This document shows, piece by piece, positions 4,214 through 47,562 of a DNA stretch of 54,692 nucleotides. Every line of letters starts with the position of its first letter. Position 1 is the stretch's first letter. Both the position numbers and the translations under genes were made by a program. The DNA is from a virus. Under the pieces are notes generated by a model. That model did not search any database, was not told the DNA's origin, and saw only the letters and a list, made by a program, of their open reading frames with translations. The DNA is taken from positions 1 through 54,692 of IMG/VR virus record IMGVR_UViG_3300021375_000034; one strand, given 5' to 3'.

Positions 4214-4242
4214 ATTATATAGTATTTTGGACAGTTAGTCAA
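4214..4242 (-). promoter_or_regulatory. Sigma70-type promoter giving a leaderless mRNA
   Basis: On the minus strand, TTGACT (4242-4237), a 17-nt spacer and TATAAT (4219-4214) are followed by six bases and then the ATG of the 89-residue gene. Five of six -35 bases and all six -10 bases match the bacterial housekeeping consensus. The expected start point coincides with the start codon. Confidence 0.7.
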
Positions 4243-4268
4243 GAAAAAAGACACCGAAGTGTCTTTTT
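4243..4268 (-). terminator. Intrinsic terminator with C(UUCG)G tetraloop
   Basis: A perfect 10-bp stem (AAAAAGACAC paired with GTGTCTTTTT) encloses the loop TTCG as read on the minus strand, giving the very stable C(UUCG)G hairpin, followed by a T run. It ends the candidate ncRNA. The A/T flanks could also terminate plus-strand transcripts. Confidence 0.85.
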
Positions 4269-4487
4269 AATATAAGCAAAATAGGTAGGACTTGGGTACA
4301 CCTACAAGCACGGACCTGAATACCATTCTGTTCCGTACAACCTAACCCCGCTAGTGAATGCGATGTGATACTGCCTATCTCTAGTACAGCACCTGGGTAC
4401 CACCCCTGGTTAGTCAAGTTCAACCCTTCTGGTAAAGGCTTCTTCCTTGCACTATAAACAAAAGTTAATTACTCTTTTGTTGCTATA
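4243..4487 (-). ncRNA. Candidate structured non-coding RNA (about 245 nt)
   Basis: A gene-free stretch bounded by a sigma70-type promoter and a strong intrinsic terminator. The 5' end AATATAGCAA (4489-4480) pairs with TTGCTTATATT (4279-4269) over 10 bp with one bulge, closing the whole molecule just before the terminator. Inside are an AACAAAAG/CTTTTGTT hairpin (4481-4457), an ACGGA...TCCGT hairpin with an inner GAAT/ATTC stem (about 4339-4313), a long-range CTAACC/GGTTAG pairing, a GTAGG/CCTAC hairpin and two copies of a GGTG(G)TACCCA(G/A)GT element. It is richer in GC than its surroundings. It does not read as tmRNA, RNase P RNA or E. coli-like 6S RNA to me. The only open frame would begin with TTG and run through the terminator, so it is unlikely to be coding. 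Confidence 0.6.
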
Positions 4488-4492
4488 TTATT

Positions 4493-4520
4493 AATATAAC
4501 ACAAAATAAGTATTTGTCAA
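4493..4520 (-). promoter_or_regulatory. Sigma70-type promoter of the candidate ncRNA
   Basis: Minus strand: a perfect TTGACA (4520-4515), a 16-nt spacer and TATATT (4498-4493). The predicted start, about 4486, falls at the 5' strand of the closing stem of the ncRNA. The consensus suggests transcription by unmodified host polymerase, probably early in infection. Confidence 0.6.
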
Positions 4521-4736: not shown

Positions 4737-4810
4737 AACACCCTCCTTTTTAAAGTTAGGTGCGTTCCTTCGCATAATGCTACTTCCGTCCCGATTGGGA
4801 TGAACGATAC

Positions 4811-4820
4811 TATTATTTAG
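4811..4820 (-). promoter_or_regulatory. Late-type promoter CTAAATAATA
   Basis: Minus strand CTAAATAATA, a weaker version of the late motif, lies directly after the gp23 terminator and upstream of the 64-residue gene. The leader between them contains a small CCC-aatc-GGG hairpin. Motif match only. Confidence 0.35.
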
Positions 4821-4824
4821 TCAT

Positions 4825-4856
4825 AAAAAAAGGGCGATATAAAAATACCGCCCTTT
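4825..4856 (-). terminator. Terminator of the capsid operon
   Basis: Stem CG-CCCTTT/AAAGGGCG (8 bp) with a 12-nt AT loop, followed on the minus strand by an uninterrupted T run. It begins 27 nt after the gp23 stop codon and should end the operon that starts with the tape-measure gene at 14144. Confidence 0.85.
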
Positions 4857-4882
4857 AGTAGATTTTTTAAATCTATACTTGC

Positions 4883-6055
4883 TTACGCAAATCTTAGGTT
4901 AGCTGAAGTAACTCCAACTTTTCCTAAGTAGTCAGCTGCATTACCAAGAGATGATGCAGTGTTTGTTAACTCTACATAACCATATCTTGTCATGAAACTT
5001 ACAACTGGCTCAAATGTACCTGGATCAAGTACAACACCGCTTGACATCAAAGGAATGTATGGGCAGTAGAACGCAGGTGCGTCTGATTCCGAAGAACCTT
5101 TGTAACCGATCAACACATCGTCGTCAGTTGCATAACCGTTAACGTACACACGCATTGCACTATTTAAAGTTCCTACAAACTTAGTGTTTGTTGGTGCTTC
5201 AAAAGTACCTTCAGTTGTTCTTGCGAACGCTGAAGTTGTAGCAGATTGTAACAACGTTAATACTGTTGGTGAAACAACAGCGTAGTTACCTGCGCCACGT
5301 CTTGTACGCTGTGCAATCAAGTTAGATACTCTGTTGATTTGAACAGCTAAAGCAGCATGTTCGTCACCAACAAAAGTAGCAGTACCTGACACTGCACCTT
5401 GGTCGTAAGTTAAAGCAGCCGTACCAGCAAGTGTTTTCAATGATTGAATAACTTCTTGGTCAATTTCAGCTGTTATTTCTTGTGCTAAAGCAGCCATTAC
5501 TTCTGCTTCGATGTCAATGCCCTGTTGAGCTTGTGCATCTTGTGCAGCTTCAAACGTCCAACGAGCACTCAATTTACGAGTTTTCGCTTCGACAGTTTGT
5601 TTCAAGATTTGAATGCTTAGTCTGTTTCCAGCTACACCTTCTAAAGCTGCTGTAGAAGCTGCTTTATCATTAGTAGCACCAGAATAACCTTCTGCGATCT
5701 TGAAAGGTGATAGTGCTTCGTCACCTGCTGTAGTGTCAGTTCCACTTGCAGAGTTGAATGCATCAGCATAACGTACTCTTAATGTGTGGATTTGACCAAC
5801 AGGTCCAGTCATTGGCTGTACACCAACCAATTCGTTTGCGATGACAGTTGGCATCACACGTCTGATCACTGGAAGGATCACACGGTTTAGTGTTGCAACG
5901 TTACCGGCAGAAGTAGCACCTGCAGTGGCAGACTCGTTCAAATACGTGCGGGTATTCTCTAGAGTTGTTGCCATAACAGTACGCTTGTTACCTTGAAGTC
6001 CTTCTAAAAGGGCATCTTTGGTTTCTGACCAGCGACTTTCTAGTAGTTGTGACAT
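4883..6055 (-). CDS. gp23: Major capsid protein gp23
   Basis: Forms the hexamers of the T4-like head. Recognised from the block with NRVILPVIRR, then ELVGVQPMTGPVGQ and LRVRYADAF (about residues 57-100), which aligns with the conserved T4 gp23 core (GVQPMNSPTGQ). The N-terminal stretch to residue 41 is the probable propeptide: LNE at 39-41 fits the gp21 cleavage rule (L/I-x-E). At 390 residues it is much shorter than T4 gp23 (521), so surface insertions are reduced. AAGGAG site before the ATG; last gene of the capsid operon, behind gp22 and gp21, with its own strong terminator. Confidence 0.95.
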   Translation of the reverse strand: MSQLLESRWSETKDALLEGLQGNKRTVMATTLENTRTYLNESATAGATSAGNVATLNRVILPVIRRVMPTVIANELVGVQPMTGPVGQIHTLRVRYADAFNSASGTDTTAGDEALSPFKIAEGYSGATNDKAASTAALEGVAGNRLSIQILKQTVEAKTRKLSARWTFEAAQDAQAQQGIDIEAEVMAALAQEITAEIDQEVIQSLKTLAGTAALTYDQGAVSGTATFVGDEHAALAVQINRVSNLIAQRTRRGAGNYAVVSPTVLTLLQSATTSAFARTTEGTFEAPTNTKFVGTLNSAMRVYVNGYATDDDVLIGYKGSSESDAPAFYCPYIPLMSSGVVLDPGTFEPVVSFMTRYGYVELTNTASSLGNAADYLGKVGVTSANLRFA

Positions 6056-33300: not shown

Positions 33301-33778
33301 TGACGAACTTAGAGTAACGTTTGGAACAGGACTAAACTCTATTAAGTCAATTAGCGATGAAGTAGTTTATCATCCTGTGAAGTATAAAGTTTTATTTGGC
33401 AGTAATGCTGACACTAAATTACAAGCTCAGTTTAAGGTTGTTAAGAATCCTAATAAAAATGTTAACAATAACGATTTAAAAGTAAGAATTGTAAATGCAA
33501 TGAATCAATTCTTTGATGTAAACAACTGGGACTTTGGAGATAGATTCTATCTAAGCGAACTTACAACTTATATATTAAATGTAGTTTCGCCTGATATATC
33601 AAACATTGTTATATTGCCAAGACAGACATCACAGGCATTCGGAAGCCTGTTTGAAATACAAAGTAAACCAGACGAAATTTTTGTTAGTGGTGCCACTGTT
33701 GATGACATAGAGATTGTATCTTCTATTACGGCTGCTGAAATTAACTCAGCAAATAGTTCAATAGTGAGTGACACATAA
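30377..33778 (+). CDS. gp6: Baseplate wedge protein gp6
   Basis: Backbone of the baseplate wedge, binding gp25, gp53 and gp7. The N-terminus (FENLRRVIITYLRENYPEDFNDY, SSEYLALIDAIAFLGQSLSFRIDLASRENFI in overlapping parts of residues 25-95) is the T4 gp6 hallmark. The C-terminal part has the Baseplate_J-type end VRIVNAMNQFFDVNNWDFGDRFYLSELTTYI near 1035-1070. 1133 aa compared with 660, with an enlarged beta-rich centre (about 430-950). Its TAA overlaps the next ATG (TAATG). Confidence 0.92.
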   Translation: MSTTSRQNNLLLNEDWTRIYQTFANADFKSYDFENLRRVIITYLRENYPEDFNDYIESSEYLALIDAIAFLGQSLSFRIDLASRENFIELAERKESVLRIAKMLSYNAKRNLPSKGLLKFTSVSTTEQLIDSNGRNLASQTVKWNDPTNTNWAEQFILLLDAAMSDNTKFGRSQGTDVIQGIPTEQYRFRTASTDVPMFTFNKNVAGRQMVFEILSTTFKGAEEIYEEAPTPGNQLGFLYRQDNKGPASPNTGFFMHFKQGSLELADFTIDAPSTNEKVAVDAKGINNDDVWLFELLANGSQAQEWTKVSNLTGNNIAYNSLSGDIRNIYAVETKQRDMIDLVFADGVYGNLPKGSFRTYYRISNGLSYTISPNEMKNVNISVDYVNQAGIAHTLTIGMALQSTVSTSTPTESVASIKRNAPANYYTQNRMITGEDYNLAPLATSQNILKVKASNRTSSGLSRNFDLIDASGKYSSVNVFGTDGYMYKEEDEQSLSFKFSNRSDIINFIKQKVEGVFTETDVYNFYFTKYDKILFTSDNIVWNASTNNINEGTGYFTNKVDLSLLKVGTYSTNNLKYITPGANVKFTAPTGQSFKDGLLVTTDDTDSSQKSVIWTKVISVAGDGTNAGTGANAKGIGPIVFNDNVPSGAVASRIVPKFVTDLSDALESSMVNQAFANLNFGLRYDDKESSWKIIQNQNLDLTSAFSLGKSGDVTNNNLDSSWIMAFVKDNDQYIVRTRTLNYVFGSKKQNRFYFDKSEKAYNSLTGKVEKDVVNVLGINSKNVGTGSLIQDYPFEVADVIKFDDGYESTKEIRLGFRDSDADGVIDNPESFVNVVGEDLDLKYLFFKAEKDDYGTTVYNLVDTTVTPILVIEKESLVNVNNYSDGQLIYFYDSAENRVKRVDRTTNTLVLESTYRANIGRDNIKFQYTHSASEDRRLDPSVTNIIDLYLLTRSYDTEFRNYLAGARTTEPTAPTNDELRVTFGTGLNSIKSISDEVVYHPVKYKVLFGSNADTKLQAQFKVVKNPNKNVNNNDLKVRIVNAMNQFFDVNNWDFGDRFYLSELTTYILNVVSPDISNIVILPRQTSQAFGSLFEIQSKPDEIFVSGATVDDIEIVSSITAAEINSANSSIVSDT

Positions 33779-36700
33779 TGGCTGCTGATAACAAAAAGTT
33801 TCCTAATAGCGACATTCCAATTAGAAAGAGTTCAGACTTATTACCTAACGTCTTTCAAACCCCAGCCAATGATAAATTTTTATCAGGCGTACTTGATCCT
33901 TTAATACAGCCGGGTGTTGTTGACAAGACTGTAGGTTATATTGGTAAGCGTTACGGAAAAACTTTTACAGGAAAAGATGTTTATCTTGATACAGACCAAA
34001 CACTAAGAAGTCGTTATCAACTTGAGCCAGCTGTTACAGTTGAAGAAGATCAAAAGATTTTAAAATTTAAAGATTATATTGATCTTAAAAGCATGGTTGA
34101 GTTCTTTGGCAATGCTAATGAAAGAGATGATAAAACTACAGAGCAAGAACATTACAGTTGGAATCCTCCTATTGTATGGGACAAGTTTATTAACTACAGA
34201 GAATATTATTGGATTCCAGGCGGTCCTCCATCTATAGATGTATATGGTCAAGCAGCAAATATTCAAAGTACATATAAAGTAGGAACTGGTATAAACAGTT
34301 GGATACTTACACCAGACAGTGTAACTAATAATCCTGATATTACTTTATATAGAGGACAAGAATATAAGTTTGAAGTTAACTCTCCTGATGAAGGTTTTTA
34401 CATTAGAAACAATTATGATACAGGATCTTTAGAATTTAATCCTAATAAATCATACTTCCCTGGAGAACTAGCAGTATTCGACAAACAACTTTGGAAGTGT
34501 GTTAACGAAACAAGTCCATTAGACGGAAGTAGTATTACAATTGATTCACAAGATTGGCAATTGGTTGCTAACGATGCAGGATTTGCTTCTCTACTATATA
34601 GAGATGGTGTAGAAAATAATGGTGTAAAAGTAGGAACGTTAACATTTAAAATTCCACAAGACTCGCCAGATATATTATATTATCAAAGTGATGTTGAACC
34701 TAATAGGTTAGGTAGATTTATTATTTCAGACATTGATACAAATACTTTTATTGATGTTGAAAAAGAAGTTGTAGGTAAAAAAGAATACACAACCGCAGAC
34801 GGAATTAGTTTTACAAACGGAATGGTTGTAGCATTTAGAGGCCAAGTGCAACCATCAAAGTATGCAGACGGCCAATGGTTAGTTGAAGGTGTTGGTTCAG
34901 AGATTAGATTAATTAATTTTGCTGACTTAGTACCTCCGCCATTAGATACAGATTCGCCTGATATATTATTTGATAATCAAGGATTTGATACACAGCCTTT
35001 TGATGATGCAACACAGTATCCTGGTAATAAAGATTATATTACAATTGCTAGAAACAGTAAAGACTCTAACCCTTGGTCCAGATATAACAGATGGTTCCAT
35101 AGAGCTGTTTTAGAATCTGCATATAAATTTAGAAGTCAAGACTTTGATTCATTAGAATCAGCTAGAGCTAAAAGACCTATTATTGAATTCCAACCTGATA
35201 TACAATTATATAATCACGGTGGCATTGCAAAACAAACAGTTGACTACGTAGATACATTTACAGATGATGTGTTCTCTAAAATTGAAGGATCACAAGGTTA
35301 TAATATTGACGGTGAGTTCTTGTTTGAAGGAGCAAGGATTCTAGTTATTGCAGATACAGATAGTTTAGCAAATAACAGAATTTATGAAGTAAGGTTTGTA
35401 AAACACAATAACACCACACAAATTAATTTAAAAGAAACTGCTGATTCATTATCAGCATTTAATGAAGGTGTTCTAGTAAGACGTGGTACAACTAACGCAG
35501 GTAAGATGTATCATTATGATGGTACAGTTTGGAAATCAAGCCAAGAAAAAACTAGTGCTAACCAAGCACCTAAGTTTGAATTATACGATTCAGCTGGTGT
35601 TGCATTTTCAGACCCAACAATATATCCAGTATCAAGTTTTGTAGGTAGCAATCTTTTAAGTTATAAAGTTGGCACAGGTGTTGCAGATACAGAATTAGGT
35701 TTTGCATTAAGTTATGCAAATATTAATAATGTAGGTGACATTGTATTTGATTGGAACTTTGAAACAGAAAAATTTGTTTACACGCTAACGCAAAAACAAT
35801 ATACCAAGAATACTAACACTGGGTTCTATAAAATTAATGGAAAATATGCAAACGGTTGGATAGCAACAGACAAAAAATTTATTCAGCCAATTATTGATCA
35901 GTACACGTTTACTACAGCAGATTCTATTGCAATATTTAATACTGTTGATTGGGATGTGTTACCAGACGATGCAGTAATTAATTTTTATCTAAACGGCGAA
36001 TATATTAGTGACACATATACTAGAAGTACTAATCAGTTTACGTTTGATAGAACATTTAATATTAATGATGTAGTAACTATAAAAATAGTTGCAGAAATTA
36101 AACCAGACCAAGGGTATTATCAAATACCTGCAGGATTAGAAAAAAATCCTCTGAATGAACAATTAAAAACATTTACGTTAGGACAAGCAACAGATCATTT
36201 AAAATCATCTCTTGAATTTGATAGAAGAGTTGTAGGAACTGTTCCGGGTGTTTCAAATCTAAGGGACTTAGATCAGTATCAAAAACACTCAACAAGGTTT
36301 ATGAAACATTCAGGTTTCGCAGCAGTGTCTACTTTGTTAATTAATGACAAAGATATTAACATTGTTAAATCTTTAAGATATGCTAAGTCAGCATATACTA
36401 TTTTTAAACAAAATATTATTAAGAAAGCAACCGAAGTTGAGTTCAACGAAAATACTTCAGACTTTTTAGATAGTATTATAGAAATTATTACAAAGACTAA
36501 AACTATTGACAGTCCTTTTGCAGACTCTGATATGATTGGTGCTGGAGCGTTTACAAGAACAGATTATGTTGTTGACGATCCAGGTATTAAAACATTTACA
36601 CTTACTGAAGATTTTGATTTAGAAACATTAAGCAGAAGAGCAGTATATGTTTACCTTAATGATGTACAACTTATTGTAAACAAAGATTACACAGTTAATG

Positions 36701-39700
36701 GAGCATTGGGCTTTATTACAATTACAGGTACGTTAGTTGAAGGTGATAGAATTGAGATTAGAGAGTATGTGTCAACAGCATTTAGCCATGTACCACCAAC
36801 TCCAACATCACTAGGACTTTATCCTAAGTACGAACCTACAAAATATTTAGATGACACTTACAGAGTACCTAAAGATGTAATACAAGGACACGATGGTAGT
36901 AAAACTACTGCCTATGGCGATTATAGAGATGACTTACTTTTAGAATTTGAAAAGCGTGTATTTAATAACATCAAACAAGATTACGATGCTAAGATTTTTG
37001 ATGTTCAAAAAGCGTTGGGTGGATATTACGGTAATAGTACATTTGTAAAAGAAGAACTAGATAGCGTAATCAATCAAGAGTTTTTATCATGGGTGCAAAA
37101 TACTAACCTAGGTTATACAACAAACGATTATTTTGTAGAAACAGAACCGTTTACATATACATATTCAGGTATGACAGATCCAACAGGCAAAGAAAACTTG
37201 CCTGGATATTGGAGAGGTGTTTACAAATATTTTTACGATACTGATAGACCGCATACACATCCATGGGAAATGCTAGGCTTTACAATAAAGCCAACATGGT
37301 GGGAGACTGAGTACGGAGCAGCACCTTATACTAATGGTAACTTGGTGTTGTGGGAAGATATTGCTGCTGGTAAGATTGCTCAAGGAGATCGAGCAGGGAT
37401 ATATCCAAGATATGCCAGAACAACAATTCTAAATCATATTCCTTGTGATTGTGACGGTAATTTAGTTGATCCTTTAACTTCAGGTCTTGCAGGTAATTTT
37501 CAACTTGTTAACAATAGAGGTCCTTTTAAACTAGGTGATGATAGTCCAGTTGAAAACGCATGGAAAACTAGTTCAGAATATCCTTTTGCAATAACAACAG
37601 CACTAGCATTATTAAAACCGTTTGATTATCTAGTACTAAACTTTGACAGAGCTGTTACTAAAAGAAACATTATTGACCAGTTAGTAAATGTAACATCGGA
37701 AACATTTTTAACACCAACAGACTTAAAGTTTCCTATCGCAGGAAAGACACAGGTAGCAGGACTTGCAATTTACATTGCTTCATATATTAAGTCAGTGGGC
37801 GGAGCAGTTGCTGATGCTCAGAAAAATATTGATTATATAAATGTTAGATTAACTTCGAGAGTAAGCGGGTTTGTTGATAAGCAGCAACAAAAATATTTAC
37901 TTGATAGTAAAAATCCAAGCTCGGCAAGTGCAAGTGTGTTTATTCCACCTGAGAACTACGATATTATCTTTAATGTAAGTTCTCCAATAGCTTCGGTTAC
38001 TTACAGTGGTGTTATATTTGAAAAAACAACACAGGGTTGGGTAGTAAATGGATACGATGATATTAATCCTTACTTTAATACGTTTGAAGCGTATCCACAA
38101 CAAGCTGATCCTGTAATTTCAGTTGCAGGAACTTCAGAACCTTTTACTGAATGGGATCAAGAAAAAACATTTAACAACGGTGGTATTGTTGAGTACAGAG
38201 GAACATTCTATAGAGCAACACAAACATTTACCTCTGGAGAAACATTTGATAAAAGTAACTTAGTACAGCTACCCGACTTACCAGTTCAGAATGCTGTTGT
38301 TGCTCAACAACGTAGAAACTTTAATAGTTTCAAAGTTAAGAAAGTAAGTTACGGAACAGAGTTTAACAGTATACAAAGTGTAGTTGACTTCTTACTAGGA
38401 TATCAAGCACACTTAAAGAGTCAAGGGTTTGACTTTGCAAACTATGACGGCACTAATCAAGTAGTACAAGATTTTACAACAGCAGCAAAAGAATTTATGT
38501 ACTGGACAGTCCATAACTGGGCAGTTGGTTCTGTATTATCGATGAGTCCAGGTGCAGCAAGTATGGAAATTAATCTTGCTGTCGGAGTTGCTGATAACTT
38601 ATTAGATAGTTTCTATGATTATAATGTGTTGAAAGCAGACGGCTCAGCACTTGATCCTAAATTTATAAATGTATCAAGATCTTTTCAAAAAATTCAAGTT
38701 AACACAACAAACACAACTGAAGGTATCTACTTACTAAAATTAAATTATGTTCTAAAAGAACATGTTGTTGTATTTGATGATAAAACAGTTTTCAATGATA
38801 CTATATTTGATAAAGCAACAGGTTATAGACAAGAAAGAATTAAAGCACAAGGATTTAGAACAACAGATTGGGACGGTGATTATACTAGCCCTGGCTTCTT
38901 ATTTGATAATGTATCATTTGATACTTGGATACCTTATTATGATTATAAATTAGGAGACATTGTATCTTACAGAGCATACAAGTATACCGCAAGATTTAAT
39001 CATACTAGTGATGAAGAGTTTAATGACGCTAACTGGACACAACTAGACTCAACACCTGAGAAACAACTTATTCCTAACTTTGATTATAGAATTAATCAAA
39101 TGGAAGATTATTTTGATGTGTCATCAGAAGGATTAGGAAAGAGCCAGAGAGATCTTGCAAGGCATACAACAGGATACCAAAGCAGAGAATATTTAGAAAA
39201 TTTATCTGAAGATCCAACAACACAGTTTAAATTGTACCAAGGATTTATCAGAGAGAAAGGTACACCAAATGCAATTACTAAACTGTTTACAAAACTAGGT
39301 GATAATACTAGCAATGCCGCTGTTGATCTTAATGAGGAGTGGGGATTCAAGTTAGGACAAGTTGGAGGAGTTGATCAGTCAGAAAGAATTGAAATTAGAT
39401 TAGATACTGACAAGTTTAAATTAAATCCTCAGCCTGTATTAGTACAAGCGTCTGCAGAAGATAAAGTTGATAGGTATTATAGAATTGATTCGACTAATTT
39501 TGAGTTTGGTCCAAGTCCGTTTACAACAGACATTAACCCAACTAGTTATGATTCCAAGCCTGTATTAACAGCAGGATATGTATCAGTAGGTCAAACAGAC
39601 TTTACAGTTACAAACAGAGATGAAATATTAAATCTTGCAATTGCTTCAGTACAAGATAATAATCATATATGGGTTACATTTGATGGACCTTCATGGACCG

Positions 39701-42700
39701 TTCTTAGAGCAAACACAGTATTTGATTTAAAAATTACAAACTTAGAAAGTAATGATGATAACGAAGTGATCTTTACTTTTGAAAAAGCACACTTGTTAAA
39801 AGTTGATGATATATTTGGTATCAAAACAATAGCAGGACTAAGTCAGTTTTGGAAAGTAAAAGCAGCAACAACTAATACAGTTACAGTACAGCATACAGAA
39901 AAGTATGATGCAGATCAAGGATTCGAACCTAGCACAGGCGCTTATCCAATGTTACTAACTGAAGCACGATTTAGTTCTTACGACACTGTTGACCCAGAGA
40001 AGGTAGCACTACTAACTGACGGATCAAAACTATTTGTAGACTCTAATGTAAACTCACACTGGGAAGTTGTTGAAAAGAAAAAACAGTTTACAGGTAATAA
40101 AATTGTTGACTTTGGTATTACTGATCCAACAAGTGTTGGTAAGAAAACAGTTTACAGTGATACACTTAAACAGGTTATAGTTGGCATACCTGATGCAGCA
40201 AGAGTAGGAATTTATATTCAAGGTGCAACAGGCCTATCGTCTAAGCAATTGCTTGAACCACCGTCATGGTTAACAACAGATGTTACAGGATCATTTGGTC
40301 TTGAATTAGCACTTAGCCCAGATAGCCAGTGGTTGATGGTTGGTGCTCCAACAGCAAGTGGAATCCCTAGCAGATATCAAGGTGCATTTGATGTAAATGC
40401 AAACTACTTAATTAATGACATTGTTTTATTTGCAGGTAGACTTTATAAAGCAACTGATAATATTAACGGTGACGGCAGTACAATTGATGTGTACAGCAAT
40501 GAATGGGTTGAAGTACAGAAGATTGATGCAGAAAGCGATGGATCAAACACAGGTGGTTTTGAAACAGGTGTAATATTTATTTACAAGTACCAGTCACAAC
40601 AGTGGAACTTATACGACATACAAGTAAGTCCTAGAACTTATGACAATGAAAGATTTGGTGAAAAGATTGCAGTTAGCCAAGCAACATCAACAGGCCCTTA
40701 TTACATGTCAGTATCAGCACCTGGTTCACAAGATGCAAAAGGTCGTGTATATCTTTACACGTATGATACAACAGATGGTTGGCGCTTAGACTATAATAAA
40801 AATTATAGAGGCATTTATGCTGCTGATGATTCTACTTTTTATCCTAAGGACTCAATAGTATTTTCAAATGGAGATATGTGGAAAGCATTAGTTGATAATG
40901 TTGCAGACGGAAGTTCATTAACAATTTACTCAAACGATTGGGTTAAGATGGACGAAGTAACAACAGGTGCTTCACTTCCGATGTCAATAGCAACTAACGA
41001 TGATGGTTCAACACTTGATGCAGGAATACTTGATGACGAACAACTTGTTGAGTTAGTTAAAGTAGATGATCGTTTTGGTACTTCTTTAGCAATGAACTAT
41101 GACGGTACAGTACTTGCAGTAGGCTCACCAAACAGTGACGGACAATACTTTAATAACTTTAAAGGTCAGTGGAGACCTAACTACGAATATATGCAAGGCG
41201 ATACAGTTAAGTATCAAGGCAGTTATCATCAATTACAAAATTTAGGACCAAGTGCAGTAGGTGCAGATAGTACAATTAGAAGTTATAACGAAGCACCAGA
41301 TGCTGGCGAGCCTTGGGTAAACGTAGGCGATAGCACAGACGTTGCTTCAGGTAAAGTTTACATATACAAAAAGAATGCAGCTGGTGTTTATAGATTACTA
41401 CAGCAAATAAATGCAGACTCTCTTCCATACCTAAGTGATCTTGATCCAAGTGAAGCAATAAGCTCAGGTGACAAGTTTGGTTATGCTATTGGATTAGACT
41501 ATTCAGGTAACACATTAGTTGTTACAAGTCCTTTAGCAGATAAAAACTTCCAGAATCAAGGTAGTGCTTATGTGTTTAAGTTTGATAGTGATTCAACAGA
41601 ATTTGCTTATAGACTAAAACAAAAATTAACAAGTTACTCAGATTATCCAAATGAAATGTTTGGTCAAGATATTTCAATCTCAAGCGGTACTGAAATAATT
41701 GCAATTGGTGCAACTAATTCTCCGTTTACATTACAGACAAGATTTGATGGATCACAAACATCATACGACAGTAACAGAACTACGTTTAGAGATTATGACG
41801 GATTTGCTGGAGCAGTTTATGTGTTTGAGAAAAAAGGTAAGTCTGAGAGATACTTCCTATCAGAGAAAATTGACGAAACACTTTCTTTAAACGAGTCTTT
41901 TGGTTACAGTTTATATGCTACAAGAAACGCTATTGTAGTTGGATCGCCTAACTATATTTCTCCTGCACCGCACGGAGTTGATATTGCATTTGAAGGAGAT
42001 AAAACAGGTACAGTTAGATTGTTTGAAAAAACTGAAGGTCAAAATGCACTAAACGTTATTGGCTCACAACCACAAACAGTTGACATTGATAAGTTTAAAC
42101 GTATTTCACTTTATGATACTGAAGATGATATAAAAATTCTTGACATAGAAATTTTTGATCCTGCTAAAATGAAACTGTTAGCACAAGCAGAAAGAGAACT
42201 TACATATAAAGTTCCATACGATCCTGCAATTTATACAACAGGAACAGCAGAAGGTGCTGTTGTTGATGATTCTATTTGTTGGAAAACTAAAAACGTAGGT
42301 AAACTATGGTGGGATATTTCAACAGCTAAGTGGTATGACTATGAGCAAGGCGAAGTTTCATATAGAGTAGGTGCATGGGGAGCATTGGCTCCTGGAGCAT
42401 CAATTGATGTTTATGAATGGGTACAGTCTAAATTACTTCCTTCGGAGTGGGCAGTAGTTGCAGATACTAATGAAGGTTTACCACTAGGCATATCTGGGCA
42501 ACCATTGTATGCAGATGATAGTGCTTACAGTATAAAAGCAGAATTTAATCCTAATACAGGAGAACAAACAGAAGTTTATTATTACTATTGGGTAAGAAAT
42601 AAAGTTACTGTTCCTGAAGGTAATACTGATAGATCTATTTCAGCAGCAGATGTGTTTAATTTGATTAGTGATCCTTCTGCACTAGGACAAACATATGCAG

Positions 42701-45700
42701 CATTTATTGACAAAGACAAATTTTTATTATTCAATTACAAAGCATCAGTAGCAGAAATCTCTGCTGTACTAAATGTTGAATACTTTACACAAGAAGAAAA
42801 TCAAAACCAAGTACATAACGAGTATCAACTTCTAACTGAAGGTGTTGCAGATAGTTTACCAACTACATCATTAGAAAATAAATGGATTGATAGTTTAATT
42901 GGATACGATAGACAAGGTAATAGAATACCTGATCCTAACTTACCAGCTAAACAACGATATGGTATAAGTTACAGACCAAGACAAAGTATGTTTGTTGATA
43001 GAAAGTCTATCTTAAGAACTTTAATTACAAATGTTAACGCAATCATGCACAAAGAAGCATTTGCTGATTCATTAAACTTTACAACGTTAAACTCAGTAGA
43101 CAGTATTCCAAGTTCTTTATTAAACCTTTATGACACAACAGTTGATAGCTATATTGAATTACTTGAAGTTGGTACATCTAGAATTAAACAATGTAACTTA
43201 CGTGCAAATATTATTGATAATGAAGTCAACTCTATTGATATTTTAGATGCAGGGTTTGGATATAAGATACCTCCAACTATTGAATTTGAAGGTGACGGAA
43301 CAGGTGCAGAAGCAGTTACTACAATTGACAACCAAGGTAGAGTTAACAGTGTAACAATTACTAATAAAGGTAAACTATACACATACATTTCTACTAAACC
43401 AAGACAGTTTAGTGTGCTTGTTAATAACGATTCTACTGCAAATAATTTCTGGAGCATTTATGCTTGGGACGATGTAAGAAAATCATGGTACAGAAGTAGA
43501 TCACAAGCGTATAACACACCGTTATATTGGTCATATGCTGACTGGTGGGACAATGACTTTGGTCCTACTTCAAGAATAGTAAAAGAAATAGTTAGTGTAT
43601 ACGAAGAACCAACTATAAATGTTGAAATTGGAGACTTGATTAGAATCAAAGAATACGGTTCAGGTGGCTGGGCAGTGTTTAAGAAAACTACTGATGTTAG
43701 TACCGAGTCTATGAACAACTACGAGATGATTGGTAGGTACCAAGGAACTATTCAATTCTCATCAGACTTATATGATACAGCAACAAGTGGTGTTGGATAT
43801 GACAACGTAGACTCATTTGATATTGACTTTTATGATAAAGAAGTTTCAAATGAACTTAGATTTATTTTACAAGCATTGAAAGAAGATGTTTTAACTGGAA
43901 ATTATGCAGTTGAGTGGAATAACTTATTCTTTACATCAATTAGATATGTGTTTAAAGAACAAACGTATGTAGATTGGGCGTTTAAATCTAGTTTCTTAAA
44001 TGCAACACACAATGTTGGCACACTAAAACAAAAAACTAATTACAAAAATGACAGTCTTGAAAGTTACTTAGATTATATTAACGAAGTAAAACCTTACAGT
44101 ACAACAGTAAGAGAATATATTAGTAAGTATAACACTATAGATAATACAAATTCTGCTATTTCAGACTTTGATTTACCTCCTTACTATTCAGAAGCACAAG
44201 GAAAAATTGTTCCTGTTGAAAGTACTGACGATATATTAGCAACGTATCCTTATAAATTCTGGAACGATAACAAAGGTTACCAGATTATTGAAATAAGTGT
44301 TGCTGGTAAAGGCGCAGATTACACAGAAGCACCTAAAGTATTAATTACTGGTGGAGGCGGAAGCGGTGCTAAAGCAACTGCATATGTTTCAAACGGTAAA
44401 GTTACTGGAATCAAATTAACAGAACACGGTTCAGGATACACATCAACACCAACTGTTTCCCTTGTAGGCGGTAATGGTACTTCACCATCAGTTGCAAGAG
44501 CAGTTGCAGTGTTAGGTAATGGTAAAACACGTTCTATAAATGTTAATATGAAGTTCGATAGAATTTCTAAAACAGGAATTTATAGTAACTTTACACAAAC
44601 TGAGTCGTTTACTGCTACAGGTTCAACAGCAGTGTTTAATTTAACTTATCCACCAACTAGAGATAAGTCAAATATTTCAATTATTAAAGACGGCCAAGTA
44701 GTTCTTAATAATGAATATGATATTGCTTTGTTTACATTAGAAACAGATGAGTATAAACAACTTAGAGGTAAGATTACTTTTAAAATTCCACCAGCAAAAG
44801 ACGAAGTTATTAATATAACGTATGCAAAGAATGATGAAATCTTAGATAGTGTAAGTAGAATTGAAAAATATTACAATCCATCATCAGGAATGGTAGGTAA
44901 AGAACTGAATCAGCTAATGACAGGTATTGACTTTGGTGGTGTTCAAGTACAAGGTACCACATTTGATGTTACAGGTGGTTGGGACGCATTACCTTGGTTT
45001 ACTGATAGTTGGGATAGTGTTGAGTCAGCAGCAGATTATTACTATGTTGCAGACGGAAGCACAATTAATGTAACACTTCCTTATACTCCTGTAGATGGTC
45101 AAGTTCTTAATATCTACTTAAAACGTGCAGGCACAGTAGTACCTGACGATATTTTAAATTTACAAGTTGAAGAAGGGGTTGAAGAACCGACAACACATAG
45201 AATTGACGATCCTAATTACACTGATAACTGGGATAGCTCAGTTTCAACGAATCCACATGCACAGATGCCAACATTTATCGGTGACGGTAGCACAAACATT
45301 GTTGAAGTTGGTGCTTATGTGTCAACGCAGCCCGGTGATATTTTAATTTTCCGTCCTGCAGAGAGTGATGGTGCTGTAACTATTAATGATAACAACTTAT
45401 TAGATACAAAGTTATCAGGTGGAACATTGTCAGCAATGGAAGGTGCTTATGCAACAGCAACAGGATTAAATGCAGAAGACATTTCAATAGACGGTGGTGA
45501 ATATACTAGCCCAGATCAAGTTCCTGCAACAGAAGAAAATATTCCTGGACAAGTTTTAGATAGTTTAAGTATTAAAGTGTTCCATTCAAACAAAGACGCA
45601 GCAGGAGCAACAGTTAAATCCAATATTAGAATTGGTGACGGATCAACATTAGTATATCCAATAGGACAAAAAATTCTTGAAAACAAATCAGTAATTGTTT

Positions 45701-47562
45701 ATATTGACGGAATAAAATCTGCACCAGCAACTTATACTGTTAATATTTCAAATAGTACAATTGAATTTTCAAGTGTTCCAGCAGAAAATTCTAAAATTGA
45801 AATAGTTTCAATTGGATTAGGCGGCGTGTCAATACTTGATTACCAAGAGTTTATTGCAGATGGTGAGACAACATTATTCTTAACTAACGCAAACTATATT
45901 GATACTTCAAATATTTTTGTATCAGTCAACGGTGTACAATCTGATACAGGATTTATTGACAGCACAGACTTATTACCTGACACGCCAAACAGAACACTTG
46001 TACAGTTTGGTACAAAGCCTGATAGATTAGCAGTGATTAGAATTGTTGCATTTGGCGCAGCAGCAGACGTTGATAGTTCATTGCAATCTTTAATTAGAGT
46101 TAACCAACAAGAATTTACATATGATGGTAGCACTAAGAGTTATGACTTAGATACATTTGTTCAGTTATCTAGAGAAAGTGCATTAGCATCAACTATTGTT
46201 GAAGTAAACAACAAAAAACTAAAAAGTGTTGACACAGTTTACAATGTTTACGATGGTGTAACTAAAAAGTATGTACTAGGTGTTGATCCTATTGCATCAG
46301 CAGGTTCTATTGTTCCAAACAACATTAAAGTTTATATTAACAACGAGCTAAAAACATTTATTACAGACTATGTTTATAATGGTACAACTAAAGAGCTTGA
46401 GGTTACTGCGGAAAATTTGACGGTCGGAGATGTTATTAAAATTGAAAATAACCTAAATGCAGAGTACTCTGTGGTAGGTAACAACATTGTTATTAATGAT
46501 TCAACAGCATTAACACTAGGTGATACAATTGATGTAACTTGGTTTAGTGAATATCCTTCAATGGAAATTGTTAGTGATCAGTATACAGGTGGTAAAGCAT
46601 TTTATCCTATTGCATTTAAACCATTGGGTGTAAGTTATGTATGGGTTTACAGAAACAAAACTAAACTTATACAAGATGTTGATTATCGCTTAGATGTTGA
46701 ACGAGGTGCTGTATATATTGAAGGTTCTAATAAAGATACAGATAGTTTTGAAATTGTAGCGTTTGGGTCTAATGTATTTGCATTACCAAGTGCATATCAA
46801 GTTAGTAAAGATATGTTAAACATCAATCGTTACACTAGATATGCAATTACTGATAATTTAGTATTGGCAAAAGAATTAACTTACTATGATGAAAGTATTA
46901 CACTTGCAGATGCTTCTACATTGTTTGACCCTGTTGCAGGCAAAAATATACCAGGCATTATTGAAATAGATGGTGAGAAAATTGAGTACATGAACAAGAA
47001 TGGTAATGTACTAAGCAACTTGAGAAGAGGTACACAGGGTACAGCAATTAAAACACTGAATCCTGTAGGATCATATGTAGTTGATTTGAGTACAGACCAA
47101 ACAATTCCATATAAAGATACCCAATCAAGAACAGATTTTGTTAGTGATGGTAGCAGTCAACTCATTGGACCACTACCTTTTGTTCCTAAGCTAAGTACTG
47201 TTAGTGATTGGTATGAAGGAACAATTCCAGCAATTTATGGAAGATGTGACTCAATTGAAGTATTTGTTGGCGGTAAAAGACTACGCAAAACATATATTGA
47301 TCAATACAACGAAACTAAAGGTTCAACTAGCCCAGCAGGCGATGAGAAGGTTGAAGCTGAATTTAGTGTTGACGGGTCGTCAGCATATATTAGACTAACA
47401 AATGTACCTCCGGCAGGTACACGAATTAGTATTATAAAACAACAAGGACAAGTATGGTACGATAGAGGCCAAAATACTGCTACATCAGGCGTTACGCTGC
47501 TTAAAAACAGCACTCCAATTAGTCAGTTCATTGCTGCCAATACATCGAAGTTACCTGAATAA
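33778..47562 (+). CDS. Giant baseplate/virion structural protein, 4594 aa
   Basis: One uninterrupted frame of 13.8 kb, in the place of T4 gene 7. The N-terminus (1-130) is a wedge-type anchor. Residues about 1034-1065 (GHDGSKTTAYGDYRDDLLLEF) and 1153-1165 (HTHPWEMLGF) recall large marine phage baseplate proteins. Six modules of the pattern Y-x-x-G-D-x-V-x-x-x-G-x-x-(Y/W)-(K/R)-A resemble chitin-binding modules (about 218, 1452, 1714, 2201, 2341, 2460). FG-GAP-like repeats at about 2115, 2171, 2291, 2431, 2564, 2625 and 2705 suggest a seven-bladed propeller. Gly-rich GYT...P repeats lie near 3156 and 3510. The end (3600-4560) is a row of beta-sandwich units. It starts at TAATG overlapping gp6. 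Probable gp7-like wedge extension and receptor-contact organ. Confidence 0.75.
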   Translation: MAADNKKFPNSDIPIRKSSDLLPNVFQTPANDKFLSGVLDPLIQPGVVDKTVGYIGKRYGKTFTGKDVYLDTDQTLRSRYQLEPAVTVEEDQKILKFKDYIDLKSMVEFFGNANERDDKTTEQEHYSWNPPIVWDKFINYREYYWIPGGPPSIDVYGQAANIQSTYKVGTGINSWILTPDSVTNNPDITLYRGQEYKFEVNSPDEGFYIRNNYDTGSLEFNPNKSYFPGELAVFDKQLWKCVNETSPLDGSSITIDSQDWQLVANDAGFASLLYRDGVENNGVKVGTLTFKIPQDSPDILYYQSDVEPNRLGRFIISDIDTNTFIDVEKEVVGKKEYTTADGISFTNGMVVAFRGQVQPSKYADGQWLVEGVGSEIRLINFADLVPPPLDTDSPDILFDNQGFDTQPFDDATQYPGNKDYITIARNSKDSNPWSRYNRWFHRAVLESAYKFRSQDFDSLESARAKRPIIEFQPDIQLYNHGGIAKQTVDYVDTFTDDVFSKIEGSQGYNIDGEFLFEGARILVIADTDSLANNRIYEVRFVKHNNTTQINLKETADSLSAFNEGVLVRRGTTNAGKMYHYDGTVWKSSQEKTSANQAPKFELYDSAGVAFSDPTIYPVSSFVGSNLLSYKVGTGVADTELGFALSYANINNVGDIVFDWNFETEKFVYTLTQKQYTKNTNTGFYKINGKYANGWIATDKKFIQPIIDQYTFTTADSIAIFNTVDWDVLPDDAVINFYLNGEYISDTYTRSTNQFTFDRTFNINDVVTIKIVAEIKPDQGYYQIPAGLEKNPLNEQLKTFTLGQATDHLKSSLEFDRRVVGTVPGVSNLRDLDQYQKHSTRFMKHSGFAAVSTLLINDKDINIVKSLRYAKSAYTIFKQNIIKKATEVEFNENTSDFLDSIIEIITKTKTIDSPFADSDMIGAGAFTRTDYVVDDPGIKTFTLTEDFDLETLSRRAVYVYLNDVQLIVNKDYTVNGALGFITITGTLVEGDRIEIREYVSTAFSHVPPTPTSLGLYPKYEPTKYLDDTYRVPKDVIQGHDGSKTTAYGDYRDDLLLEFEKRVFNNIKQDYDAKIFDVQKALGGYYGNSTFVKEELDSVINQEFLSWVQNTNLGYTTNDYFVETEPFTYTYSGMTDPTGKENLPGYWRGVYKYFYDTDRPHTHPWEMLGFTIKPTWWETEYGAAPYTNGNLVLWEDIAAGKIAQGDRAGIYPRYARTTILNHIPCDCDGNLVDPLTSGLAGNFQLVNNRGPFKLGDDSPVENAWKTSSEYPFAITTALALLKPFDYLVLNFDRAVTKRNIIDQLVNVTSETFLTPTDLKFPIAGKTQVAGLAIYIASYIKSVGGAVADAQKNIDYINVRLTSRVSGFVDKQQQKYLLDSKNPSSASASVFIPPENYDIIFNVSSPIASVTYSGVIFEKTTQGWVVNGYDDINPYFNTFEAYPQQADPVISVAGTSEPFTEWDQEKTFNNGGIVEYRGTFYRATQTFTSGETFDKSNLVQLPDLPVQNAVVAQQRRNFNSFKVKKVSYGTEFNSIQSVVDFLLGYQAHLKSQGFDFANYDGTNQVVQDFTTAAKEFMYWTVHNWAVGSVLSMSPGAASMEINLAVGVADNLLDSFYDYNVLKADGSALDPKFINVSRSFQKIQVNTTNTTEGIYLLKLNYVLKEHVVVFDDKTVFNDTIFDKATGYRQERIKAQGFRTTDWDGDYTSPGFLFDNVSFDTWIPYYDYKLGDIVSYRAYKYTARFNHTSDEEFNDANWTQLDSTPEKQLIPNFDYRINQMEDYFDVSSEGLGKSQRDLARHTTGYQSREYLENLSEDPTTQFKLYQGFIREKGTPNAITKLFTKLGDNTSNAAVDLNEEWGFKLGQVGGVDQSERIEIRLDTDKFKLNPQPVLVQASAEDKVDRYYRIDSTNFEFGPSPFTTDINPTSYDSKPVLTAGYVSVGQTDFTVTNRDEILNLAIASVQDNNHIWVTFDGPSWTVLRANTVFDLKITNLESNDDNEVIFTFEKAHLLKVDDIFGIKTIAGLSQFWKVKAATTNTVTVQHTEKYDADQGFEPSTGAYPMLLTEARFSSYDTVDPEKVALLTDGSKLFVDSNVNSHWEVVEKKKQFTGNKIVDFGITDPTSVGKKTVYSDTLKQVIVGIPDAARVGIYIQGATGLSSKQLLEPPSWLTTDVTGSFGLELALSPDSQWLMVGAPTASGIPSRYQGAFDVNANYLINDIVLFAGRLYKATDNINGDGSTIDVYSNEWVEVQKIDAESDGSNTGGFETGVIFIYKYQSQQWNLYDIQVSPRTYDNERFGEKIAVSQATSTGPYYMSVSAPGSQDAKGRVYLYTYDTTDGWRLDYNKNYRGIYAADDSTFYPKDSIVFSNGDMWKALVDNVADGSSLTIYSNDWVKMDEVTTGASLPMSIATNDDGSTLDAGILDDEQLVELVKVDDRFGTSLAMNYDGTVLAVGSPNSDGQYFNNFKGQWRPNYEYMQGDTVKYQGSYHQLQNLGPSAVGADSTIRSYNEAPDAGEPWVNVGDSTDVASGKVYIYKKNAAGVYRLLQQINADSLPYLSDLDPSEAISSGDKFGYAIGLDYSGNTLVVTSPLADKNFQNQGSAYVFKFDSDSTEFAYRLKQKLTSYSDYPNEMFGQDISISSGTEIIAIGATNSPFTLQTRFDGSQTSYDSNRTTFRDYDGFAGAVYVFEKKGKSERYFLSEKIDETLSLNESFGYSLYATRNAIVVGSPNYISPAPHGVDIAFEGDKTGTVRLFEKTEGQNALNVIGSQPQTVDIDKFKRISLYDTEDDIKILDIEIFDPAKMKLLAQAERELTYKVPYDPAIYTTGTAEGAVVDDSICWKTKNVGKLWWDISTAKWYDYEQGEVSYRVGAWGALAPGASIDVYEWVQSKLLPSEWAVVADTNEGLPLGISGQPLYADDSAYSIKAEFNPNTGEQTEVYYYYWVRNKVTVPEGNTDRSISAADVFNLISDPSALGQTYAAFIDKDKFLLFNYKASVAEISAVLNVEYFTQEENQNQVHNEYQLLTEGVADSLPTTSLENKWIDSLIGYDRQGNRIPDPNLPAKQRYGISYRPRQSMFVDRKSILRTLITNVNAIMHKEAFADSLNFTTLNSVDSIPSSLLNLYDTTVDSYIELLEVGTSRIKQCNLRANIIDNEVNSIDILDAGFGYKIPPTIEFEGDGTGAEAVTTIDNQGRVNSVTITNKGKLYTYISTKPRQFSVLVNNDSTANNFWSIYAWDDVRKSWYRSRSQAYNTPLYWSYADWWDNDFGPTSRIVKEIVSVYEEPTINVEIGDLIRIKEYGSGGWAVFKKTTDVSTESMNNYEMIGRYQGTIQFSSDLYDTATSGVGYDNVDSFDIDFYDKEVSNELRFILQALKEDVLTGNYAVEWNNLFFTSIRYVFKEQTYVDWAFKSSFLNATHNVGTLKQKTNYKNDSLESYLDYINEVKPYSTTVREYISKYNTIDNTNSAISDFDLPPYYSEAQGKIVPVESTDDILATYPYKFWNDNKGYQIIEISVAGKGADYTEAPKVLITGGGGSGAKATAYVSNGKVTGIKLTEHGSGYTSTPTVSLVGGNGTSPSVARAVAVLGNGKTRSINVNMKFDRISKTGIYSNFTQTESFTATGSTAVFNLTYPPTRDKSNISIIKDGQVVLNNEYDIALFTLETDEYKQLRGKITFKIPPAKDEVINITYAKNDEILDSVSRIEKYYNPSSGMVGKELNQLMTGIDFGGVQVQGTTFDVTGGWDALPWFTDSWDSVESAADYYYVADGSTINVTLPYTPVDGQVLNIYLKRAGTVVPDDILNLQVEEGVEEPTTHRIDDPNYTDNWDSSVSTNPHAQMPTFIGDGSTNIVEVGAYVSTQPGDILIFRPAESDGAVTINDNNLLDTKLSGGTLSAMEGAYATATGLNAEDISIDGGEYTSPDQVPATEENIPGQVLDSLSIKVFHSNKDAAGATVKSNIRIGDGSTLVYPIGQKILENKSVIVYIDGIKSAPATYTVNISNSTIEFSSVPAENSKIEIVSIGLGGVSILDYQEFIADGETTLFLTNANYIDTSNIFVSVNGVQSDTGFIDSTDLLPDTPNRTLVQFGTKPDRLAVIRIVAFGAAADVDSSLQSLIRVNQQEFTYDGSTKSYDLDTFVQLSRESALASTIVEVNNKKLKSVDTVYNVYDGVTKKYVLGVDPIASAGSIVPNNIKVYINNELKTFITDYVYNGTTKELEVTAENLTVGDVIKIENNLNAEYSVVGNNIVINDSTALTLGDTIDVTWFSEYPSMEIVSDQYTGGKAFYPIAFKPLGVSYVWVYRNKTKLIQDVDYRLDVERGAVYIEGSNKDTDSFEIVAFGSNVFALPSAYQVSKDMLNINRYTRYAITDNLVLAKELTYYDESITLADASTLFDPVAGKNIPGIIEIDGEKIEYMNKNGNVLSNLRRGTQGTAIKTLNPVGSYVVDLSTDQTIPYKDTQSRTDFVSDGSSQLIGPLPFVPKLSTVSDWYEGTIPAIYGRCDSIEVFVGGKRLRKTYIDQYNETKGSTSPAGDEKVEAEFSVDGSSAYIRLTNVPPAGTRISIIKQQGQVWYDRGQNTATSGVTLLKNSTPISQFIAANTSKLPE

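Follow-up and report, generated by a model that had tools for sequence, protein, structure and literature searches.

A divergent manA-type RNA in T4-like aquatic phages, predicted to be a free-standing single-copy RNA gene

The window analysed here, a viral stretch of 54,692 nucleotides (IMG/VR record IMGVR_UViG_3300021375_000034), carries on its minus strand a structured RNA that is almost certainly a homologue of manA RNA (Rfam RF01745). We estimate a probability of roughly 0.8 that the locus is a free-standing non-coding RNA gene of T4-like aquatic phages, with a predicted RNA of roughly 220-245 nt, as judged from sequence comparison. The manA family itself is known, whereas the divergent branch and the revised reading of its function are new. 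For more than 15 years, manA has been listed as a regulatory leader and a riboswitch candidate with unknown ligand. Weinberg et al. 2010 (PMC2864571) were certain that manA is an RNA, graded it cis-regulatory (Y) and thought a riboswitch role probable (y). The cis-regulatory label is repeated in recent cyanophage papers (PMC9964418, PMC10665884, PMC12197685), and the literature searched, with incomplete coverage, contained no proposal that manA is a separate RNA. If it is one, the hunt for a ligand has been misdirected. The analysis provides a single locus, expected transcript ends, a strongly supported pseudoknot, and a whole branch of manA that standard annotation misses.

The transcription unit and its surroundings

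The unit consists of a promoter, the predicted RNA and an intrinsic terminator in direct succession (Table 1). The first-pass annotation, which worked from the letters and a list of open reading frames, had proposed a complete non-coding transcription unit here, running from a promoter through a closing stem to a terminator, and the comparative evidence supports it. The promoter is present as described, and so is the C(UUCG)G terminator, which reads AAAAAGACAC-UUCG-GUGUCUUUUUU, with the stem formed by 4268-4259 and 4254-4245 and followed by T's. The proposed 10-bp closing helix corresponds to P0 (AUAAGCAA/UUGCUUAU), which has 10 pairs between 4489-4480 and the 4275-4265 region and one bulged U in the window. 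The RNA has its own promoter at its 5' end and its own terminator, as a free-standing small RNA gene should. The -35 element of the next gene's promoter overlaps the tail of this terminator. A housekeeping-type promoter amid late structural genes suggests, by analogy with T4-like biology, early host-driven transcription, in which host RNA polymerase would transcribe the RNA early in infection.

Several other features were recorded in the window. A strong terminator with a 12-bp stem (4856-4829, minus strand) stands right after the major capsid gene and isolates it from the downstream RNA unit. Between the two lies a glutamine riboswitch (RF01739, 58 bits, 4808-4759, minus strand) before a small ORF; the ORF start listed at 4775 falls inside the riboswitch, and the likely start is an ATG near 4738 after AAGGAGG. 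Only about 7 nt separate the end of the next-gene promoter from the start codon (ATG) of ORF 4207-3938 (4242-4207, minus strand), so the mRNA of this ORF would be leaderless or nearly so. Further on, a freshwater-2 RNA (RF02980, 54.4 bits, 3918-3843, minus strand) directly precedes ORF 3845-3453; at window-type loci, relatives of this ORF (MGRPINK...) occur downstream more often than any other gene. A Polynucleobacter-1 RNA (RF01718, 67.9 bits, 19253-19109, minus strand) occurs here in a T4-like phage contig, although its family is listed for Burkholderiales and freshwater samples. Additionally, a 4594-aa ORF (33778-47562, plus strand) matches the virion structural protein family phrog_10938, and PHROGs assigned no family to the flanking small ORFs, one weak match excepted.

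Table 1. Coordinates of the RNA unit, its structural elements and the adjoining promoter within the window
Feature	Position	Strand	Basis or remark
Promoter, sigma-70-type, TTGACA-16-TATATT	4493-4520	-	11/12 consensus positions; TG precedes the -10 (extended -10)
Predicted RNA, starting near +1 and ending with P0, the outer closing helix	4265-4487	-	Promoter/terminator geometry, P0 and fold; ends approximate and inferred
Match to manA RNA RF01745, model positions 1-192 (full)	4275-4479	-	54.7 bits, E 5.7e-13
Conserved core by model R1 (174 positions)	4281-4458	-	121.2 bits, E 5.2e-24; single match in the record
5' strand of P0 (outer closing helix)	4480-4489	-	Pairs with about 4275-4265
P1 hairpin at the transcript 5' end, ACAAAAG/CUUUUGU	4458-4480	-	Fold; most relatives have a hairpin ahead of the core
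P3 apical-loop strand of the pseudoknot, ACC, with partner GGU 4316-4314	4431-4433	-	Column pair 28-166
P4 multibranch arm CUAACC/GGUUAG, containing P5 (GGG-GUGGUA-CCC), P6 and P7	4342-4413	-	Two-sided changes at 6/6 P4 pairs
P8 arm	4308-4338	-	Five of the strongest covarying pairs
P9 hairpin, conserved 11-nt loop UNNACNNNARU, contiguous with P2	4285-4305	-	100% paired
3' strand of closing helix P2, partner of 4455-4452	4281-4284	-	Alignment, two-sided changes
P0, outer closing helix, 3' strand, directly before the terminator	4265-4275	-	Fold and comparison
Intrinsic terminator	4241-4268	-	10-bp stem, UUCG loop, T-run
Next-gene promoter TTGACT-17-TATAAT, serving ORF 4207-3938	4214-4242	-	11/12 matches

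Relationship to the manA family

The full-length match to RF01745 lies 0.5 bit under the gathering score of 55.2 bits, so a standard Rfam scan misses the window RNA. At that score Rfam did not list it and the RF01745 search of its own record was also empty; a lenient cmscan alone recovered the match. The first-pass annotation had treated the RNA as an unrecognised one, a view that gives way to homology with the known manA RNA just under the cut-off. It had not recognised tmRNA, RNase P RNA or 6S RNA either, and here it was right. Neither Rfam nor ARAGORN found a tRNA or tmRNA, and the 6S and RNase P RNA family models gave no match.

The homologous family is large. A degenerate pattern from the 3' hairpin retrieved about 120 viral contigs, and covariance model R1 was built from an alignment (A1) of 37 diverse sequences with both types, window and cyanophage, mixed. 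This model matched 100 of the 100 pattern loci searched, and it also matched each of the 100 loci that a second, independent pattern of window type had retrieved. In total, manA-type homologues occupy more than 200 loci with strong covariation. Within the branch of the window, relatives fall on both sides of the Rfam cut-off: L001 (64.0 bits) and L113 (57.5 bits) exceed it, and L088, L145, L147, L163, L073 and L066 fail it. The Rfam model in its present form therefore overlooks a large branch. Owing to its score below the gathering threshold, the window RNA is filed as a divergent homologous branch and not as a standard manA member. It shares with manA the full-length alignment, the compensated helices and their order, the conserved loops and T4-like phage carriers. 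It differs by a core with AGUGCAAGGAA instead of AGUGACUGAAU, an extra outer helix P0, a dedicated terminator, and the lack of a leader placement before metabolic genes. Moreover, it does not lie in a 5' UTR as a cis-regulatory element would, since it ends in a terminator of its own and a separate promoter serves the next gene. The wcaG RNA (RF01761), a cyanophage regulatory candidate described together with manA, is a separate, shorter family and is unmatched in the window.

Among named phages, blastn gave one real relative, Pelagibacter phage Mosig, which has its one copy at 108170-108350 and is the closest isolate found for the branch of the window. In P-HM2, the manA RNA occupies 4793-4963 on the plus strand. 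Bacterial genomes provided three clear matches among 70 pattern hits (one Prochlorococcus single-cell genome and two marine MAGs), which may be phage-derived. Very divergent homologues of 33-40 bits were seen at the same place downstream of gp23 in L040, L042, L044, L050 and L054, and capsid relatives without a match may hold still more distant ones.

Fold, covariation and coding potential

The single-sequence fold of the window RNA is only modestly better than its shuffles (z -2.46), so comparison had to decide whether the RNA is real. In A1, which was aligned by sequence only, 95.5% of the cells are paired against 74.2% after shuffling (0/500), and 159 cells changed on both sides against 39 in shuffles (0/500). 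Two-sided changes occur at 19 of its 24 pairs, and slid partners leave at most 52% paired. The window-type set A4 has 98.3% of cells paired versus 80% in shuffles (0/500) and 284 two-sided cells, with such changes at 17/24 pairs, figures that lean towards the model because A4 was fitted to it. The first-pass annotation had staked the RNA on compensatory changes, and these are abundant in both alignments. A chance assembly of promoter-like and terminator-like elements with no conserved RNA would agree with the moderate z value, but it is refuted by the covariation counts and by homologues at more than 200 loci, and its probability is negligible. It is also very improbable that the locus is a DNA-level site, for example for replication, recombination or packaging, with the RNA incidental. 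Such a site would fit the single copy per genome and the frequent placement after gp23; however, RNA pairs including G-U pairs and a pseudoknot are kept by compensatory changes over 160 nt, and promoters abut the RNA 5' end.

Comparison supports the closing helix, four arms and the pseudoknot, and the several internal hairpins noticed at first are borne out. A covariation scan placed P8, P9, closing helix P2 and the stems of P4 and P5 at or near the top. For instance, P2 is AUAG/CUAU in the window and GGGAG/CUCCC, UGUAG/CUACA or GGAAG/CUUCC in relatives. For P0, own pairs scored 6.41 versus 5.68 for swapped pairs (sd 0.13) over 70 distinct RNAs. The sisters L168 and L218 have this helix unbroken. 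Its 2-3 outermost pairs may precede +1. RNAalifold recovered 24 pairs only from the mixed alignment, probably because variable hairpins misalign. Structure corrections to manA were already made in Rfam 14.

The pseudoknot joins the apical loop of P3 to the segment after P8. Its complementarity was 111.6 versus 99.3 (sd 2.5; 0/500 permutations), and the pair variants GGCA/UGCC, GUAAG/CUUAC, GUAGA/UCUAC, CAGU/ACUG and GUCA/UGAC substitute for one another. A figure legend in Weinberg et al. 2010 (PMC2864571) mentions a tentative pseudoknot in manA, and the interaction given a question mark there may be this one. For the kissing candidates, the GUGGUR hexaloop or the P8 loop with the P9 loop, the positions hardly vary across relatives. 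The two reported copies of a GGTG(G)TACCCA element, GGTGGTACCCA and GGTGTACCCA, are real, but they belong to distinct elements: one lies in hairpin P5 and the other in the 11-nt P9 loop. Their counterparts are no longer alike in cyanophage members, so there is no functional repeat.

The view that the locus holds no believable ORF agrees with the present results. The only overlapping frame in the window is 62 aa long with a TTG start, and open frames over 166 relatives measure 50.4 codons versus 50.7 in shuffles. A coding origin was rejected because these frames are no longer than shuffled ones, and a conserved protein, which had been named as grounds against the RNA, left no sign across the same relatives. 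Hypothetical proteins are annotated over the RNA in several cyanophage records (such as PHM1_121, PSSM4_169.1, SSSM5_127 and PHM2_011/012), and these ORFs are probably spurious. The overlying annotations were found at L203 1166-1342, L205 1251-1424, L208 1205-1411 and L210 1256-1430 (P-HM1, P-SSM4, S-SSM5 and P-HM2), with T4 gene-cluster numbers 524, 428, 569 and 570. The main text of the P-HM2 RNA-seq paper (PMC5082946) names neither manA RNA nor PHM2_011/012.

Separate RNA or leader

Promoters and terminators were surveyed around 179 unique flanked RNAs (93 window-type, 78 cyanophage-type and 8 others). A promoter was required to reach at least 9/12 within 90 nt upstream and a terminator hairpin to lie within 60 nt downstream; the controls were random places in the same loci and hence include coding sequence. 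As the RNAs were retrieved by patterns tied to the RNA itself, a promoter or terminator bias is not expected, with diversity limited. A promoter precedes 85 of the 93 window-type RNAs (91%, control 16%) and 76/78 of the cyanophage type (control 18%). The -10 box most often ends 5 nt before hairpin P1, thus P1 starts near +1 in cyanophage types. Terminators follow 48/93 window-type RNAs (52%), all 10-16 nt past the core, versus 0.8% in controls. Their stems vary in sequence among relatives with the pairing kept. Nearly half of the window-type RNAs lack a terminator by the strict rule, and some have imperfect ones (L066, L040). Only 11/78 cyanophage-type RNAs have a terminator hairpin within 60 nt, and 36/78 have a U-tract (at least 4 T's within 12 nt; control 5%), which suggests that the closing helix plus U-tract would end the RNA there. 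A second conserved hairpin (GACCTAAGATGCAACTC...GAGTSGGGCAGATGGTC) with T's trails many cyanophage copies (L086, L108, L111, L116, L122); it had no Rfam match in L086, L108, L111 or L116.

All 15 named phage genomes searched whole contain exactly one copy. The window has a single copy too, and so does each of four IMG contigs, but none occurs in seven other contigs that carry a related capsid gene. The RNA follows gp23 in the cyanophages MED4-213, P-HM1, S-SSM5, MbCM1 and P-RSM4. In other named cyanophages it follows pstS, nrdB-region genes, regA or ferredoxin, or precedes gp32. In the window-type set fetched without a gp23 reference, 21 of the 68 loci with enough upstream sequence have it within 800 nt after gp23. 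Downstream genes belong to 34 families among 72 cyanophage-type loci and to 15 among 24 window-type loci. In most cyanophage members the next gene lies on the same strand at a distance of 20-150 nt, and gp32 is the most frequent one.

Taken with the single copy, varied neighbours, next-gene promoter and tRNA adjacency, the terminator arms, which have no preferred partner in their own RNA, fit a separate RNA better than a leader. In the branch of the window, the sequence evidence makes a stand-alone transcript very probable, and the anatomy of the window unit suggests that manA RNAs are separate RNAs and not switches before genes. The opposing account is a cis-regulatory leader or riboswitch, in which the manA domain senses a metabolite and controls terminator read-through into the downstream gene. 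It is backed by the cis-regulatory class given by Rfam and Weinberg et al. 2010, by the promoter-aptamer-terminator order that transcriptional riboswitches share, and by downstream genes mostly on the same strand; a leader role could also draw on read-through in cyanophage members, which mostly lack a terminator hairpin and lie near a same-strand gene. However, the attenuator search found no alternative pairing of the terminator arms with their own RNA (own versus swapped RNAs 8.27 vs 8.25 and 9.49 vs 9.53), and hence no expression platform of this kind. Moreover, one copy per genome amid highly varied neighbours, a next-gene promoter that overlaps the terminator tail in the window, and some copies that precede tRNAs instead of mRNAs all argue against a riboswitch, which we consider improbable. 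A dual role, in which a stable leader piece set free by termination or processing works in trans and minority read-through expresses the next gene, mainly in cyanophages, is doubtful, if less so. It would suit the cyanophage types, with their shared 5'-end promoter, their usual lack of a terminator hairpin and a gp32-like gene as the largest downstream family (13/72), but the branch of the window has a dedicated terminator and a next gene with its own promoter.

For the separate RNA, action in trans is probable, with the mechanism inferred. The closed, pseudoknotted fold would give a stable RNA that could bind either a protein, from host or phage, or part of the translation/tRNA machinery. For the manA RNAs overall, the balance tilts away from riboswitches and towards a single-copy RNA gene that acts in trans and is widespread among T4-like aquatic phages. 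It would be transcribed by host polymerase from +1, with a large branch that the current Rfam model leaves out and with closing helix and U-tract as its own terminator in many cyanophages.

Other phage RNAs offer a parallel. GOLLD and ROOL are associated with phages and tRNA arrays. Like the window RNA, they are functionally unexplained structured RNAs of phages that sometimes lie among tRNA genes, but they are far larger and unrelated in sequence and fold, and neither has an Rfam match in the window; cryo-EM structures of both are available (PMC12286853).

The arms, the contiguous closing stem and the neighbouring tRNAs point first to a partner from translation or tRNA biology, although this evidence is weak and such a specific partner is a tentative and rather unlikely proposal. 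Like the T-arm of tRNA and tmRNA, a 5-bp arm of the window RNA adjoins the closing stem without a gap, but this RNA has an 11-nt loop and no acceptor end. CMCompare (PMC3692125) reported a weak 13-bit link between manA and tRNA, cloverleaf-like, and the adjacency of manA to tRNAs. In L186, the manA RNA sits between two tRNA-like genes with nearly no spacer (2253-2589), both called by Rfam and not by ARAGORN. Furthermore, a tRNA lies 12 nt downstream of the RNA in L044, L098 and L134, compared with 0/304 control places.
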